From positions 1-64,000 of the forward strand of contig NZ_MTAV01000146.1 in NCBI RefSeq assembly GCF_002154695.1: a stretch of DNA of 64,000 bases, given 5' to 3'. Shown in pieces: positions 46,174 through 55,182 of this stretch. How positions within the stretch are numbered: the first letter of the stretch is position 1; the number at the start of each line of letters is the position of its first letter. The notes beneath the pieces are model-generated. The model saw only the letters and a list, made by a program, of their open reading frames with translations. It ran no database searches and was not told the origin of the DNA. This stretch comes from Nostoc sp. T09 (GTDB taxonomy: Bacteria; Cyanobacteriota; Cyanobacteriia; Cyanobacteriales; Nostocaceae). The translations under genes and the position numbers were made by a program.

Positions 46174-46245
46174 CTAGCAGAAACTCAACAACAAGCACTC
46201 TGCGTTTTACTTCGAGATAGGGGAATTAATCCAGACCAATTGTGA
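46174..46245 (+). pseudogene. C-terminal remnant resembling Uma2-family protein
   Basis: Twenty-three codons ending at the TGA 46243-46245 read LAETQQQALCVLLRDRGINP then DQL, like the coiled C-terminal tail of Uma2 (DUF820) proteins; the frame is closed by TAA immediately upstream. Its stop overlaps the GTG start of the pseudouridine synthase gene, suggesting the ancestral gene was translationally coupled. Confidence 0.4.
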
Positions 46246-47201
46246 GCGAATTTAATTTAGAAGTCCAAGCAAACAGCGATGGTCTCACCAACGCCTCTAG
46301 CGAACGCCTCGATCGCTACCTTTCTCAAGAACTACCAGATTTATCCCGTTCCCGCATCCAACAGTTAATCGAACAGGGTAATGTTCAACTCAATGGTCAA
46401 GTCTGCACATCTAAAAAAATTAATGTTAAAGCAGGCGATCGCATTACTCTAGAAATACCAAAAGCTCAACCTCTACAACTGCAAGCAGAAGATATTGCCC
46501 TGGATATCTTGTATGAAGATGACCAGCTACTTATTCTTAACAAACCAGCAGGTCTAGTTGTGCATCCTGCACCCGGTCATCCAGATGGCACACTAGTTAA
46601 TGCTTTGTTGGCACACTGTCCCAACCTACCAGGAATTGGGGGAATCCAGCGTCCGGGAATTGTCCATCGATTAGACAAGGATACAACCGGAGCGATCGCT
46701 ATTGCCAAAACAGATATTGCCTATCAAAGCCTGCAAGCACAACTCCAAGCAAAAACTGCACGAAGAGAATACTTAGGTGTAGTTTATGGTGCGCCAAAAG
46801 CTGAAGATGGCGTTATAAATTTACCCATTGGTCGCCACCGCCAAGACCGAAAAAAAATGGCAGTTGTTCCCATCGAACAAGGCGGACGTGCTGCTGTCAC
46901 TCATTGGCAAGTACTAGAACGCTTAGGGAATTACACATTAATTCACTTCCAACTAGAAACCGGACGCACCCATCAAATTCGCGTCCACAGCGCCAAAATT
47001 GGTCATCCCATTGTTGGCGACCCAGTTTATGGTTCTGGTCGTTCGATTGGAGTAAATTTGCCTGGTCAAGCACTGCACGCTTGGCGGCTCAAGTTACAGC
47101 ATCCTTTATCAGGAAATCTAGTTGAGGTCACAGCACCCCCTCCACAAACATTTCTCACTTTGCTAGAAGTTCTGCGGCGACGTGCTGCTATTTCTTATTA
47201 G
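46242..47201 (+). CDS. rluD: RluA-family 23S rRNA pseudouridine synthase (RluD-like)
   Basis: 319 residues from GTG 46242. N-terminal S4 RNA-binding domain (about 18-80: RLDRYLSQELPDLSRSRIQQL) and catalytic domain with PGIVHRLDKDTTG, whose Asp is the nucleophile, HPAPGHPDGTLVNALLAHC, and the GRTHQIRVH motif. Domain order and size match RluD, which modifies helix 69 of 23S rRNA; RluC cannot be fully excluded. Located directly upstream of the pec remnant. Confidence 0.92.
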   Translation: MSEFNLEVQANSDGLTNASSERLDRYLSQELPDLSRSRIQQLIEQGNVQLNGQVCTSKKINVKAGDRITLEIPKAQPLQLQAEDIALDILYEDDQLLILNKPAGLVVHPAPGHPDGTLVNALLAHCPNLPGIGGIQRPGIVHRLDKDTTGAIAIAKTDIAYQSLQAQLQAKTARREYLGVVYGAPKAEDGVINLPIGRHRQDRKKMAVVPIEQGGRAAVTHWQVLERLGNYTLIHFQLETGRTHQIRVHSAKIGHPIVGDPVYGSGRSIGVNLPGQALHAWRLKLQHPLSGNLVEVTAPPPQTFLTLLEVLRRRAAISY

Positions 47202-47672
47202 ATAAGTTAAAAATATGGGTCAATATTTCCTATTTGCTTAACTCTGCTTTATAAAAATACATAAATAAATGCTGCATCTCAACTGATATCAAAAGCCATA
47301 ATTAACTGCCCAAAATGAGTAATTATGCTGGAAATTCAGGAATTAACTTAATTTTCATCAATAATTAATTATTTTTTATATTCAACATAATTAATAAAAA
47401 ATGTATTTTTTAATACTTCGTAAATTTGATTACTTTCTTTTAAACTTTGAATAATAAGTATTTACTACCAAAAATAATTTAAAAAATGTTTATTTATACA
47501 AAAATATTTGGTTCACCAAAATTTTATAAAGTAAAGTAAAGAAATATTTTCAGATGTAAAGCCATTTCGTTACTAATCTAATTAAAAACTGTGTAGAGAA
47601 ACGATTAGCAGAGAATTCTGTTTGGATTAATTCTATTTTACAAAACTTTATCAAAGTACTATTAGCTGCTGC
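47202..47672. other. AT-rich region where pecB and 5' pecA are missing
   Basis: About 470 bp of very AT-rich non-coding sequence. In other heterocystous cyanobacteria this position carries pecB and pecA. No phycobiliprotein beta-subunit similarity is visible in any frame. It may include the old pec promoter and leader joined by deletion to the 3' end of pecA. Confidence 0.55.
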
Positions 47673-47867
47673 TGTGTAGTTGGCGGTACTGGTCCATTGG
47701 ATGAATATGTAGTTGCTGGTTTGAGTGAACTTAACAGCGCTCTTGGTTTATCGCCTAGTTGGTATGTAGCAGCTCTAGAATTTATGTGGAACAATCATGG
47801 TTTACAAGGTGATGTTGCTGGTGAAGCCAACACTTACATCAACTATGCAATTAACGCATTGAGCTAA
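47673..47867 (+). pseudogene. pecA: pecA 3' remnant (phycoerythrocyanin alpha)
   Basis: Sixty-four in-frame codons ending in TAA encode [35 protein letters not shown] and [19 protein letters not shown], the C-terminal third of a phycobilin-binding alpha subunit. It differs from the CpcA encoded at 51834 and carries features I associate with PecA ([19 protein letters not shown]). The frame is closed by stops upstream and has no start codon; the chromophore Cys-84 region and the first 100 residues are gone. Confidence 0.8.
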
Positions 47868-47877
47868 GACAAAACTA

Positions 47878-48026
47878 TTGGGTCTTTGGAAATAGATAAG
47901 TGTCTCGTAAGTAGGTTAGCAGAATTAACTGTTTTGTTGTAGTAATTAACCTCCTTTCTACTACAAAAAGTTTAATTATTGTCTACGCTACTCAAGCACA
48001 GTATTTATCTATTACTAAAGACCCAA
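47878..48026 (+). promoter_or_regulatory. Nested intercistronic stem-loops before pecC
   Basis: TTGGGTCTTTGG...ATAGATAA (47878-47899) pairs with TTATCTATTACT...GACCCAA (48005-48026), 19 of 22 positions. Inside, TTGTAGTA (47937-47944) pairs with TACTACAA (47959-47966), extended by AATTAA arms. Likely an mRNA processing, stability or attenuation element between biliprotein and linker genes. Confidence 0.6.
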
Positions 48027-48067
48027 ATTTATTTACAACATAAATTTGAAAGGGAGCGATTGTAGGA

Positions 48068-48901
48068 ATGAGTAGTTCAGTTGCCGAACGGCTAGCAATT
48101 AGAGATGAGATTGGTAAAAAAGCTGAACTTCGTCCAAATTGGAGCGAAGATGATTTGCAAATAGTATTCCATGCTGCCTACGAACAAATTTTTGGTCGAC
48201 AAGGAATATATGCCAGCCAAAAATTTGTGAGTGCTGAAGCTTTATTGCGTAATGGCAAGATTAGTGTACGGCAATTTGTTGAGATTTTAGCAAAATCTGA
48301 ATTTTACAAAGAGTGCTTTTTTTACAAAAACTCCCAAGTGCGTTTTATCGAATTGAATTACAAGCACTTATTGGGACGTGCAATCTACGATCAATCAGAA
48401 ATTGCTGAGCACGTAGACCTATATGCTGCTAAAGGCTATGATGCCGACATTGAATCTTACATTTACAGCCAAGAATACGAGGCTGGATTTGGTAATTCTG
48501 TTGTTCCTTATTACCGTGGATTTCAATCAATTCCGGGAATGAAGACTGTAGGATTCAACCGCATATTTGAGCTTTATCGCGGCCGTGGTAATAGTGATAA
48601 TGCTCAATCGGGGCGGAAAAGTTCACGCTTGCAAACAAGAGTTTCGATGAATTTGGCTAACTGGATTTCGCCACCTTCATCAGGAGGCGGTAAGTTTGTT
48701 TCCGCAGCACCGACATTGATTAGTTCCACTCCCCGGGGAGATAGCCGGATGTTTGTGATTCAAGCGATCGCTGGTGCAATTAATACGACAGCAGTTCGTC
48801 GCAGTGTACAAGTTTACACTGTACCTTATGAACGGCTCTCTACTACTTATCAAGAAATTCACAAGCGCGGCGGTAAAATCGTCAACATTTCGGCCGTATA
48901 G
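48068..48901 (+). CDS. pecC: Phycoerythrocyanin-associated rod linker PecC
   Basis: 277 residues. N-terminal PBS linker domain (pfam00427 type, about 20-150: [45 protein letters not shown]) and C-terminal CpcD-like domain (about 225-277: [33 protein letters not shown]). Chosen as PecC over CpcC by position, directly before pecE/pecF, and because a separate CpcC lies after cpcA at 52487. It would attach phycoerythrocyanin hexamers to the rod tip; intact although pecBA is gone here. Confidence 0.88.
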
Positions 48902-48903
48902 AA

Positions 48904-48963
48904 GAGGCGGAAGGAGAGAGGAATAAGAACAAGGGAGAATGATTTACAGCAGTCTCCCGCCTC
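48904..48963 (+). promoter_or_regulatory. Stem-loop between pecC and pecE
   Basis: GAGGCGG (48904-48910) pairs with CCGCCTC (48957-48963) around purine- and pyrimidine-rich arms, in the 101-nt gap before pecE. Confidence 0.45.
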
Positions 48964-49002
48964 TCCCTTTTCTCCCGATTACCAAAATTCTCATACTTTG
49001 CA

Positions 49003-49776
49003 ATGACTGCTGCTAACTCTGCTGAACCTATTCTTTCTCCAGAAGCAGCGATCGCTGCTTTGTCGTGTGACGATAACCAAATCCGCTATTATGCTGCTTG
49101 GTGGCTAGGTAAGCATCAGGTGCAAGCTGGTTGTGCAGCGCTATGCGATGCTTTGTTTGATCAAAGGTATCGCATCCCTGATGGCGGATATCCACTGCGC
49201 CGACAAGCTGCACGGGCTTTGGGACAACTCAAAAATCCCCAAGCTGTACCAGCGTTAATTGCAGCGTTGGAATGCGATACGGATCTACGTCTACGAGAAG
49301 CAGCGATTGTTGCTTTAGCTGCTATTGGCGATCGGCAGGCTGTGACGCCATTATTGAAGCTTTTGCAATCTAGTTATGAACAACCTTATGAAGCCTTAAT
49401 TGAAGCATTAGCGACTTTAGAAATTTGGTCAGCACGTCCTTTAGTTGAGCCTTTTTTTGAGCATTCTTCTGAGCGGGTGCAATGTGCTGCTGCTCGATAT
49501 ATGTATCTTTTAACTAAGCAATCCCAGTACCTAGAACGTATTGTCAAAAACCTTAACCATGACAATATGTATTTACGCTGGGCTGCGGTATTTGACTTAG
49601 GAGCAGTTGGTCATCAGCAAGCTATAGAAGCAATTTTAGCAGCTAAAGTTCCTAACAGTTTGAAGCTGTTAAATTTGAAGCGCATTCTAGAAGCCATTCT
49701 GGATAATCATGCTTCTCAAAAAGAAATATCCCAGTTAATTTTTAAAGCGATTGATGATTTATCAATTCAGCTATGA
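49003..49776 (+). CDS. pecE: Phycoviolobilin lyase-isomerase subunit PecE
   Basis: 257 residues of HEAT-like armadillo repeats. IRYYAAWWLGKHQV near residue 28 is the YYAAWWLG motif shared by PecE and CpcE, needed for lyase activity; LRRQAARALGQL and LREAAIVALAAIG are typical repeat units. With PecF it attaches phycocyanobilin to PecA Cys-84 while isomerising it to phycoviolobilin. Assigned PecE rather than a second CpcE because it pairs with a PecF bearing the isomerase motif. CpcE itself is at 53661. Confidence 0.88.
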   Translation: MTAANSAEPILSPEAAIAALSCDDNQIRYYAAWWLGKHQVQAGCAALCDALFDQRYRIPDGGYPLRRQAARALGQLKNPQAVPALIAALECDTDLRLREAAIVALAAIGDRQAVTPLLKLLQSSYEQPYEALIEALATLEIWSARPLVEPFFEHSSERVQCAAARYMYLLTKQSQYLERIVKNLNHDNMYLRWAAVFDLGAVGHQQAIEAILAAKVPNSLKLLNLKRILEAILDNHASQKEISQLIFKAIDDLSIQL

Positions 49777-50010
49777 AAGGGATTGGGGATTAGGGATTAG
49801 CAATTAGGAATTGGGTAAAAGTTTGTTCCCGTTCTTAATACTTTGTCACAAAAACAATGATGAGTTTGTAGCCAACTTTTTCTTTTGCGATCGCTTGACT
49901 TTCAAGACAATCGCTACTGGCTATAAATATTCAATGCTGTGACAGAATTCTAGCCCCCAGTCCCTAGTCCCTTTTTTTATACTTATACACACTTACCTTA
50001 TTGAACTACA
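49777..50010. other. Gap between pecE and pecF
   Basis: 234 bp with GGGATTAGGGATTAGCAATTAGG-like repeat words at its start. No gene or clear hairpin. Confidence 0.35.
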
Positions 50011-50697
50011 ATGAATACATCCAACTCTCGTAGTACTGAGCAATTGATTTCACAATTAAACTCAAACCAAGCATCAACACCCCAAGAAGCGATCGCGGCA
50101 ATTAATGCCATAGCTGCGACTAGTACACCAGAACCAGCAGCGATCGATGCCCTAATTCAAGGTTTAAGTCATCACTACCCGACTGTCGGCGCTGCGATTG
50201 TTGAGGTGTTAGTAAAATTAGCGCCGACAACTGTACAACCGTTAATCGCTGCTTTTAATGCTTCTAGCGATCAGGGGTTACAAGCTTACATTATTCAGGC
50301 TTTGGCTCAAATTGGCGACTCGAGAGCTTGTGATTTGTTGGCGGAAGTTGTCGGTACAGCAGTAGCCAATCACTGTCAGGGAAATGTCCGCCGTATGGCT
50401 GCACGGGGACTTGGAAAAATCGGCAGTACTGCTGATGATGCAGAATTTACTCGCTTTGCCCAAGAAAAGCTAATTTGGGCGTTGCTCAATCCGGATGATT
50501 GGGGTTTGCGTTACGCGGCTGCGGTATCTCTACAGCAAATCGCTACACCAGAGGCTCAGGTCGCCTTACAACAGGCGATCGCCCAAGAGACAGACAAAGT
50601 TGTCCAATCTCGAATTGCGATCGCCTTAGAGGCAATACTCGCGGCGGATGAAATTTCTTCTATGAGGAACGAATCGAAGCACTCACAAAAATATTGA
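50011..50697 (+). CDS. pecF: Phycoviolobilin lyase-isomerase subunit PecF
   Basis: 228 residues of HEAT repeats. The motif NHCQGNVRRMAARGLGKIG occurs at residues 120-138: the NHCQGN hexapeptide (His-121, Cys-122) is the signature that distinguishes isomerising PecF from CpcF, and the CpcF at 54580 indeed has TTDFAPSVRRAAAKGLG at the aligned place. Works as a heterodimer with PecE. The frame is intact, with a slightly longer C-terminal tail (RNESKHSQKY). Its only known substrate, PecA, is truncated in this locus. Confidence 0.88.
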   Translation: MNTSNSRSTEQLISQLNSNQASTPQEAIAAINAIAATSTPEPAAIDALIQGLSHHYPTVGAAIVEVLVKLAPTTVQPLIAAFNASSDQGLQAYIIQALAQIGDSRACDLLAEVVGTAVANHCQGNVRRMAARGLGKIGSTADDAEFTRFAQEKLIWALLNPDDWGLRYAAAVSLQQIATPEAQVALQQAIAQETDKVVQSRIAIALEAILAADEISSMRNESKHSQKY

Positions 50698-51233: not shown

Positions 51234-51755
51234 ATGACATTAGATGTATTCACCAAGGTTGTTTCTCAAGCAGACGCTAGAGGAGAATTTCTCAGCAACG
51301 AACAACTAGACGCTTTGGCAAACGTAGTTAAAGATGGAAACAAGCGCTTGGATGTAGTAAACCGCATCACCAGCAACGCTTCTGCTATCGTTACCAACGC
51401 TGCTCGTGCGTTGTTTGAAGAGCAACCCCAATTGATTGCTCCTGGTGGTAACGCTTACACCAACCGTCGTGCGGCTGCTTGTCTCCGCGACCTGGAAATC
51501 ATCTTACGTTACGTTACCTACGCTATTTTAGCTGGCGACCCCAGCGTTCTTGACGATCGCGCTTTGAACGGTCTGCGTGAAACTTACCAAGCTTTGGGCA
51601 CCCCTGGTTCTTCCGTAGCTGTAGGCATCCAAAAGATCAAAGATGCAGCGATCGCTATTGCTAACGATCCTAACGGTATCACAAAAGGTGATTGCAGCTC
51701 CTTGATTTCTGAAGTAGCTAGCTACTTTGATCGTGCTGCTGCTGCTGTTGCTTAA
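51234..51755 (+). CDS. cpcB: Phycocyanin beta subunit
   Basis: 173 residues, full length. Both phycocyanobilin sites are present: Cys-82 in [11 protein letters not shown] and Cys-153 in TKGDCSSLI; the methylated Asn-72 lies in [30 protein letters not shown] is the canonical N-terminus. Forms alpha-beta trimers and hexamers of the phycobilisome rods. First gene of the cpcBACDEFG operon, followed 78 bp later by cpcA. Confidence 0.98.
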
Positions 51756-51833
51756 TAGCGCTAAAAAAAATCCGGAACCTAAAGATTAGGTATCTAGGCA
51801 AAAAATTACGAAACATCAAGGAGATTTTTAATC

Positions 51834-52325
51834 ATGGTTAAGACCCCAATTACCGAAGCAATTGCAGCTGCTGATACCCAAGGACGTTTCTTAGGCAATA
51901 CCGAACTCCAATCTGCTCGCGGTCGTTTTGAGCGTGCTGGTGCTAGCTTAGAAGCAGCTCGTGCGTTGACCTCAAAAGCTCAACAGCTAATTGATGGTGC
52001 AACTCAAGCTGTGTACCAAAAATACCCCTACACCACCCAAACACAAGGTAACCAATTCGCTGCTGACAGCCGTGGTAAGTCCAAGTGTGCTCGTGACGTT
52101 GGTCACTACCTGCGGATCATCACCTACAGCTTGGTTGCTGGTGGCACCGGTCCCTTGGATGAGTACCTAATTGCTGGCTTGGCTGAAATCAACAGCGCTT
52201 TTGATTTGTCTCCCAGCTGGTATGTAGAAGCTCTGAAGCACATCAAAGCTAATCATGGTTTGAGTGGTCAAGCTGCTAACGAAGCCAACACCTACATTGA
52301 TTACGCAATCAACGCTCTCAGCTAG
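51834..52325 (+). CDS. cpcA: Phycocyanin alpha subunit
   Basis: 163 residues with one bilin site, Cys-84 in [14 protein letters not shown], and the C-terminal [18 protein letters not shown] stretch. AAGGAG precedes the ATG. Partner of CpcB; chromophore attached by the CpcE/F lyase encoded at 53661-55182. Its C-terminus provides a direct comparison for the pecA remnant at 47673. Confidence 0.98.
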
Positions 52326-53660: not shown

Positions 53661-54491
53661 ATGATAGAACCCAGTGCAGAAGAGTATGCTGCCGAAAATG
53701 CGCCACCGCTCACACCAGAGCAAGCGATCGCTAACCTACAATCATTAGATTTAGGTCTGCGTTATTATGCCGCTTGGTGGTTGGGTAAGTTCCAAGTTAG
53801 CCAGCCAGCTGCTGTAGACGCTCTAATTGCAGCTTTAGAAGACGAAGCCGACATAACCGAACTGGGAGGTTATCCTCTGCGACGCAACGCGGCAAGAGCG
53901 CTGGGAAAATTAGGTGATAGAAGAGCCATACCGGGTTTAATTAAGTGCTTGGAATGCTCCGACTTCTATGTGCGGGAAGCAGCAGCTCAGTCTCTGGAAA
54001 TGCTGCGCGCCACAACTGCGGCACCAGCACTGATGCAACTGCTCGATGGGGGTGTAGCAGTAGCCGTGCAAGTACCAGGAAGACCGCACTTAATCCAGCC
54101 CTATGAAGCGGTGCTAGAAGCCTTAGGAGCTATTGGTGCAACTGAGGCTATTCACCTAATTGAACCGTTCCTAGAGCATTCAGTACCAAGGGTACAATGT
54201 GCCGCAGCTAGAGCAATGTATCAATTGACACAGGATCCTGCCTATGGGGAGCGCTTGGTGAAAATATTAGACGACAACGATCTAAAATTACGCCGTGTTG
54301 CTCTGGGGGATTTAGGTGCCATAGGTTATATGGCAGCAGCAGATGCGATCGCTAACGCCAAGGCAGAAAATAGCTTCAAACTCATTGCCCTCAAAGGATT
54401 GCTAGAGTATCAACTTCCAGAGGAGTTCGACGCCTTCTGTATTGCTGATGATGCAATCCGGGTTATGAACCTGATGGATTCACTATTGTAG
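53661..54491 (+). CDS. cpcE: Phycocyanobilin lyase subunit CpcE
   Basis: 276 residues of HEAT-like repeats with LRYYAAWWLGKFQV near residue 35 and LRRNAARALGKLG. With CpcF it attaches phycocyanobilin to CpcA Cys-84. It is closely similar in layout to PecE at 49003 (PLRR..AARALG, VREAAA, RVQCAAAR), pointing to an old duplication. Start follows the cpcD stop by 10 bp. Confidence 0.94.
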   Translation: MIEPSAEEYAAENAPPLTPEQAIANLQSLDLGLRYYAAWWLGKFQVSQPAAVDALIAALEDEADITELGGYPLRRNAARALGKLGDRRAIPGLIKCLECSDFYVREAAAQSLEMLRATTAAPALMQLLDGGVAVAVQVPGRPHLIQPYEAVLEALGAIGATEAIHLIEPFLEHSVPRVQCAAARAMYQLTQDPAYGERLVKILDDNDLKLRRVALGDLGAIGYMAAADAIANAKAENSFKLIALKGLLEYQLPEEFDAFCIADDAIRVMNLMDSLL

Positions 54492-54579
54492 TCAATAGTT
54501 ATTAGTTGTTAGTCATTAGTTATTAATAATGATTAAGAACCAATGACTATTGACTACTGGCTATTGATTACTTGAGTTA

Positions 54580-55182
54580 ATGACTGATGAACTAATTCGC
54601 GCCATTGCCCTTGCAGACACACCAGCGCGAATGGTGGCGGCAGTGCAAAACTTGGCAGCAACAAAAGACGTAGCGGCGATTCCCACATTAATTGCTGTGT
54701 TTGGTTATAACAATCCAACAGCAGCAGCAGTGGCAGCATTAGCGCTGACAGAGTTGGGAGAATTAGCAGTGCCTCAATTGCTAGAGCAAATTGATGATTA
54801 TAACTATGGCGCACGAGCTTATTCGATTCGCACCTTAGCAGCGATCGCCGATCCTCGCGCTTTAGATGCACTAATCAACGCAGCTACTACTGATTTTGCT
54901 CCCAGCGTCCGCCGCGCCGCTGCCAAAGGATTAGGAAATTTGCATTGGCAAAAGTTGGGATTTCCTGAAAGTCAGACAGCACCCTTAAGAGCGCTGGAAG
55001 CACTACTGCATATTTCCCAAGACTCAGAATGGTCGATTCGTTATGCTGCTGTTGTCGGATTGCAAGCCCTAGCAAAGATACCTGATTTGCAGCACCCCAT
55101 TCGGGCTAGACTCGAATACATGCTGGCCAGCGATACCGAGAAAGCAGTCCGCGCCCGCGTGCTGTTGGCTCAGAGCCAATAG
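54580..55182 (+). CDS. cpcF: Phycocyanobilin lyase subunit CpcF
   Basis: 200 residues of HEAT repeats (LAATKDVAAIPTLIAVFGY, VRRAAAKGLGNL, WSIRYAAVVGLQAL). It lacks the PecF NHCQGN hexapeptide. Partner of CpcE in chromophorylation of CpcA. The stop codon is 37 nt before the cpcG1 start; the gap between cpcE and cpcF (54492-54579) contains AGTTATTAGT-type repeats. Confidence 0.93.
   Translation: MTDELIRAIALADTPARMVAAVQNLAATKDVAAIPTLIAVFGYNNPTAAAVAALALTELGELAVPQLLEQIDDYNYGARAYSIRTLAAIADPRALDALINAATTDFAPSVRRAAAKGLGNLHWQKLGFPESQTAPLRALEALLHISQDSEWSIRYAAVVGLQALAKIPDLQHPIRARLEYMLASDTEKAVRARVLLAQSQ

Follow-up and report, generated by a model that had tools for sequence, protein, structure and literature searches.

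Operons for phycoerythrocyanin of the Nostoc/Mastigocladus type display the gene order pecBACEF. PecE and PecF are described in the literature as a lyase-isomerase making phycoviolobilin on Cys84 of PecA, and E/F lyases are described as highly specific for Cys-alpha84 in their cognate biliproteins (PMC2327270). A PecF-type isomerase with a phycocyanin client is nevertheless documented: RpcG of marine Synechococcus acts on Cys84 of RpcA (PMC5318389). Among heterocystous cyanobacteria the occurrence of phycoerythrocyanin is patchy. PecA was detected in 57 of the 218 genomes of the family surveyed here (83-100 % identity to PecA of Nostoc sp. 106C), and all 57 also encoded PecF.

The stretch of DNA under analysis, hereafter the window, comprised 64,000 nucleotides from Nostoc sp. 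T09 (G000:C94:1-64000) and was part of a 66.7-kb contig in a draft assembly of 8.25 Mb (270 contigs, completeness 100 %). Nostoc sp. 106C (L042) was the closest relative available; it served as reference and displayed an intact pecB-pecA-pecC-pecE-pecF-cpcBA arrangement at the same place. Both loci shared gene order, an upstream rluD, a downstream cpcBACDEF-cpcG cluster, a distal promoter block and a stem-loop between pecA and pecC, whereas the window was devoid of pecB, of codons 1-92 of pecA and of the -10-like block. From 5' to 3', the latter contained the rluD-like gene, 454 bp of AT-rich DNA, a pecA stub, pecC, pecE and pecF, and then cpcB, cpcA, cpcC, cpcD, cpcE, cpcF and three cpcG-type linkers (Table 1). 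An earlier sequence-only reading of this DNA had rightly described the open frames of pecC, pecE and pecF as complete, had placed the isomerase motif of PecF correctly, and had noted the AT-rich non-coding stretch, given there as 470 bp.

Table 1. Features of the pec locus and its surroundings; positions refer to the window.
Feature	Position	Strand	Basis or remark
rluD-like gene	46242-47201		upstream neighbour of pec locus
Retained upstream flank of pec operon, with distal conserved promoter block (~47620-47655)	47202..47655	+	alignment of pecB upstream regions, 15-21 relatives
Deletion junction, 1,087 bp missing relative to Nostoc sp. 106C (L042:2564-3650)	47655..47656	.	
3' remnant of pecA (pseudogene; codons 94-162 plus stop; without Cys84)	47656..47867	+	PF00502 match; omega; invariant-site changes
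Long stem-loop in pecA-pecC spacer, arms 47880-47899 / 48005-48024	47870..48034	+	RNA fold; alignment
pecC, phycoerythrocyanin-associated rod linker, intact, 277 aa	48068..48901	+	96% to 106C; operon place as in relatives
pecE, lyase subunit, intact, 257 aa	49003..49776	+	95% to 106C; CpcE-related
pecF, isomerase subunit, intact, 228 aa, NHCQGN at 120-125	50011..50697	+	96% to 106C
cpcB and cpcA, intact	51234..52325	+	genome's only C-phycocyanin-type alpha/beta pair
cpcE and cpcF, intact	53661..55182	+	ordinary lyase for CpcA Cys84

Alignment of 12 kb with 106C displayed one large internal gap only, of 1,087 bp at position 47,655, with ~93-97 % DNA identity on both sides. The gap comprised 215 bp upstream of pecB, the whole of that gene, the spacer between it and pecA, and then codons 1-92 of pecA with a single base of codon 93. 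In this way pecA lost its first 57 %, including the chromophore site, since Cys84 is codon 84 and lies inside the deleted part. The truncated gene of the window has its intact orthologue at the same place in 106C, which identifies a gene loss. The junction read ...TTTATCAAA / GTACTATTAGC... (slash at the breakpoint) and its ends shared 0-1 bp, which makes a collapse between repeats very unlikely; a collapse between pec and cpc copies was rejected because the junction lacked shared sequence.

Neither pecB nor further pecA was found in the 8.25-Mb T09 genome with the PF00502 profile or by nucleotide search. The profile matched at eleven places, namely allophycocyanin-type genes, cpcB, cpcA, parts of apcE, one weak distant place and the pecA remnant, while BLAST of the deleted 1,087 bp against the genome gave a single match, the cpcBA paralogue at 67 %. 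As the deleted DNA occurred nowhere else except for this paralogue, the assembly indicates that phycoerythrocyanin is lost from T09: of a functional pec system, PecC and PecE/PecF with NHCQGN were encoded in the window, but PecB and a PecA with Cys84 were absent from the genome. The deletion of pecB and most of pecA, the main claim of the sequence-only reading, was thereby borne out by direct alignment and by the lack of a second genomic copy. Its suggestion that pecBA had moved elsewhere was rejected by both searches and is excluded for this assembly.

The pecA remnant was matched by PF00502 above the curated cut-off at 47658-47861. Homology to pecA started at 47,656, with complete codons 94-162 at 47658-47864 and the stop at 47865-47867; the remnant previously seen at 47673-47867 was therefore real but starts earlier and comprises 69 codons, not 64, so that the earlier coordinates were correct to a few codons. 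Selection was assessed with codon models allowing a branch-specific omega, run with an own script on a fixed tree of 12 taxa. On the window branch the stub displayed an omega of 1.06 versus 0.034 elsewhere (2dlnL 9.07, p ~0.003), i.e. relaxed selection in a small sample of only 69 codons. Four amino acids differed from 106C, three of them (Y97C, V136M and R137W) at sites invariant across 54 orthologues. The stub behaves as neutral on the window branch.

The upstream regions of pecB from 15 relatives shared two blocks. The distal one, CTGTATGGAGTAACACTATTTTACAAAACTT, lay at about -250 to -220; the proximal one, CAATATATAAAATACGAACAAGGTTTTAAAAGCAATTA, looks from its conservation like a putative -10 region with leader. 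The deletion cut between the two blocks: the -10-like TATAAAATAC block and the leader were lost, and the distal block was kept with three changes at otherwise conserved positions, all absent in 106C. The putative operon promoter, assigned from conservation only, was consequently missing from the window. No convincing new promoter was found in the window ahead of pecC, and a new sigma-70 promoter in front of that gene was rejected, as nothing exceeded chance. The stem-loop of the pecA-pecC spacer (-50.4 kcal/mol, z -7.5) was kept in relatives, and this intergenic region differed from that of 106C at 2 of 206 bases. Differences in the upstream flank were far more frequent (15-18 %).

Designation of PecC, PecE and PecF relied on orthology and operon place, since no NCBIfam models specific for them were among the matches and all scores remained below the cut-offs for CpcE, CpcF and CpcG. 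PecE reached 233 bits with the CpcE model (cut-off 330) and PecF 97.6 bits with the CpcF family (cut-off 220); they were also related to chains A and B of PDB 5n3u, respectively. The dN/dS comparison proposed in the sequence-only reading was performed on the three genes together: omega was not raised on the window branch (0.191 versus a background of 0.162, 2dlnL 0.25), and omega=1 was rejected (2dlnL 17.2). For pecE/F taken apart it was 0.28, not significantly different from 0.19. Control genes were normal on the same branch (cpc genes 0.05, rluD 0.16). Changes at conserved sites were encountered in PecC (R35H, E232Q and loss of K240), PecE (P174S, L254S) and PecF (I129M, E176Q), and hint at relaxation. 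Of random point changes in these genes, about 4.5 % would create a stop codon; none occurred, which also fits a short time since the loss.

When a single fraction f of relaxed time was fitted jointly for the window branch, coding data alone gave f ~0.16, and separate values for the stub and for pecC/E/F brought no significant improvement (2dlnL 3.4); pecC/E/F alone set f at <= ~0.25. Adding the promoter block, the background rates of which were approximate, raised the conflict to 2dlnL ~9-10. If the stub and the promoter block date the loss, then pecC, pecE and pecF changed less than expected, which is evidence against their being mere passengers of a recent deletion. The excess changes all fell close to the junction, within ~35 bp on its left and ~135 bp on its right, and break-associated mutation clustering could give the same pattern. 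Given this clustering of decayed sites and the rough promoter rates, the conflict is not proof of continued selection.

Clear PecF-type sequences without PecA were found in four of the 218 family genomes, being intact in the window and decayed in Scytonema sp. NIES-4073 (G121), a congener of it (G012) and a Spirirestis rafaelensis MAG (G116). All four loci had rluD upstream and cpcB downstream. The relic of NIES-4073 (L060:5887-6576) displayed a frameshift and an insertion near its start; the insertion was shared by its congener, where a stub of 59 codons was left (L086:5078-5251), and the relic of S. rafaelensis (L079:5992-6627) had lost both ends. As in the window, the 5' part of the operon was removed and 3' sequence left before cpcB, but only a broken pecF remained in these genomes, in contrast to the whole pecC, pecE and pecF and the pecA stub of the window. 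Among relatives the 450 bp ahead of cpcB were strongly conserved (210 conserved columns). Possibly pecF survives longest because a deletion extending any further would damage the cpc promoter. Genes beside cpcB are the last to go in such losses, and the window and the decayed relics together form a series that runs from a fresh deletion through a stub to complete absence.

Order-wide (322 genomes), PecC was present in 33 genomes, 31 of which also displayed PecA. The two exceptions were the window and a genome from another family (G038), which carried an intact pecC between rluD and cpcB (L089:3174-4007). PecA was not found in that genome, no PecE exceeded the CpcE level, and the surroundings of pecC contained no recognizable remnant of pecA, pecE or pecF. 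Its PecC branch was long, with an omega of 0.12 (omega=1 rejected, 2dlnL 95). The rluD-pecC-cpcB order in a genome without PecA recalls the window, but differs from it in lacking pecE/pecF or their remnants and in the long constraint on pecC. This constraint suggests a real retained use, and the G038 protein is probably a working linker without phycoerythrocyanin; linker retention after loss of the biliprotein thus seems possible.

For T09, a recent loss of phycoerythrocyanin by one deletion, with pecC, pecE and pecF as passengers that have not yet decayed, is the probable explanation. A single deletion of 1,087 bp, presumably of the end-joining type, removed pecB, the larger part of pecA and the putative promoter core of the operon. 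With both alpha and beta subunits gone no phycoerythrocyanin would be built, and rods of C-phycocyanin alone are expected. PecE/PecF are left without their only known client and PecC without its usual hexamer. Their genes are probably little transcribed, being severed from the pec promoter and located behind a strong conserved stem-loop, and judging from the selection tests they may look intact because too little time has elapsed; where comparable losses took place in other lineages, the pecF left behind already carried a frameshift, was truncated or survived only as a stub. That the loss was recent had also been considered in the sequence-only reading, and agrees with the clean junction, the neutral stub, the intact downstream genes and the very close relative with a full operon. 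It is a known kind of event, gene loss, and an unusually fresh instance of ordinary antenna loss. An assembly artefact, in which the strain would possess pecBA and the contig would have dropped it, is conceivable for a draft of 270 contigs but highly improbable: the junction lacked a repeat and lay well within a 66.7-kb contig, the deleted DNA was on no other contig, and decay-like changes in the stub and promoter block are not expected of an artefact. With breakpoints sharing 0-1 bp, the assembly deletion between similar biliprotein genes evoked in the sequence-only reading is likewise unlikely.

Selection may alternatively still maintain the leftovers, pecC as a linker of C-phycocyanin and possibly pecE/pecF acting on another bilin protein, but this seems unlikely, and so, if anything slightly more, does its narrower form, in which pecC (perhaps with pecE/F) is still used for C-phycocyanin rods and transcribed from a promoter that lies within the remnant or downstream of it. 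The lone constrained pecC of G038, the rejection of omega=1 for pecC/E/F in the window (omega 0.19, 2dlnL 17) and the nearly unchanged pecA-pecC element (2/206) all speak for such a use. The same omega values are, however, expected under a recent deletion, the core pec promoter is gone and found no convincing replacement before pecC, the conserved-site changes in PecC, PecE and PecF hint at relaxation, and PecA accompanied PecC in 31 of 33 genomes of the order. Adoption of CpcA by PecE/PecF, which would place phycoviolobilin on C-phycocyanin much as RpcG places phycourobilin on R-phycocyanin, is the least probable reading. Both frames and NHCQGN are intact, and RpcG offers a precedent, being a lyase-isomerase with the PecF motif that acts on RpcA Cys84 (PMC5318389; PMC2327270) and resembles the window in having this motif without phycoerythrocyanin; but RpcG is a fused PecE/F-type protein with its own client, whereas T09 encodes PecE and PecF as two proteins and its CpcA is unaltered. 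This CpcA was 100 % identical to CpcA of 106C, which keeps PecA, and CpcE/CpcF, the ordinary lyase for its Cys84, was intact, so that PecE/F are not needed for phycocyanin and nothing points to a new client. The high specificity of E/F lyases for their cognate Cys-alpha84 sites (PMC2327270), the loss of the pec promoter and the lack of any sign of changed selection on pecE/F (0.28 vs 0.19, not significant) also argue against it. The new client proposed in the sequence-only reading for PecE, PecF and PecC, such as CpcA, hence found no positive support; G038 keeps it alive for PecC, though not for PecE/F in particular.

Under the preferred reading of a fresh loss, the window presents the very first step of the process, and the nearly identical, intact operon of 106C is at hand to compare it with. 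Nature has thereby set up a clean test of the ability of a rod linker or a lyase-isomerase to persist once its biliprotein is gone. On this point G038, with its pecC-only locus, is a stronger lead than the window itself.

Some further observations concerned related genes. A CpcB-like gene (47 %) on T09 contig C266 was considered as a hidden pecB and rejected, as it is apcF, encoding the allophycocyanin beta-18 subunit (L002:1480-1902, contig C266 from 6588). It displayed an in-frame TAA at codon 141, which is Gln in 106C, followed by 28 codons that were still readable; this is a second damaged phycobilisome gene in the T09 genome or a sequencing error. Divergent PecF-like sequences (41-48 %) were encountered without PecA in frames of 460-510 aa (G030:C215:13761-14297, G211:C53:66438-67043 and G212:C120:2494-2991), perhaps fused lyase-isomerases of another biliprotein. 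A similar match (41 %) in a 769-aa frame was located near the genome's own pecF in G092. Dolichospermum sp. UHCC 0259 displayed a second, divergent lyase pair (PecE-like 45 %, PecF-like 43 %; L081:3576-6330) between pecC and the ordinary pecE/pecF. Finally, two genomes presented the reverse of the window, with PecA but no PecC orthologue above the CpcC level (G403:C231:2751-3236 and G457:C1540:6164-6649).
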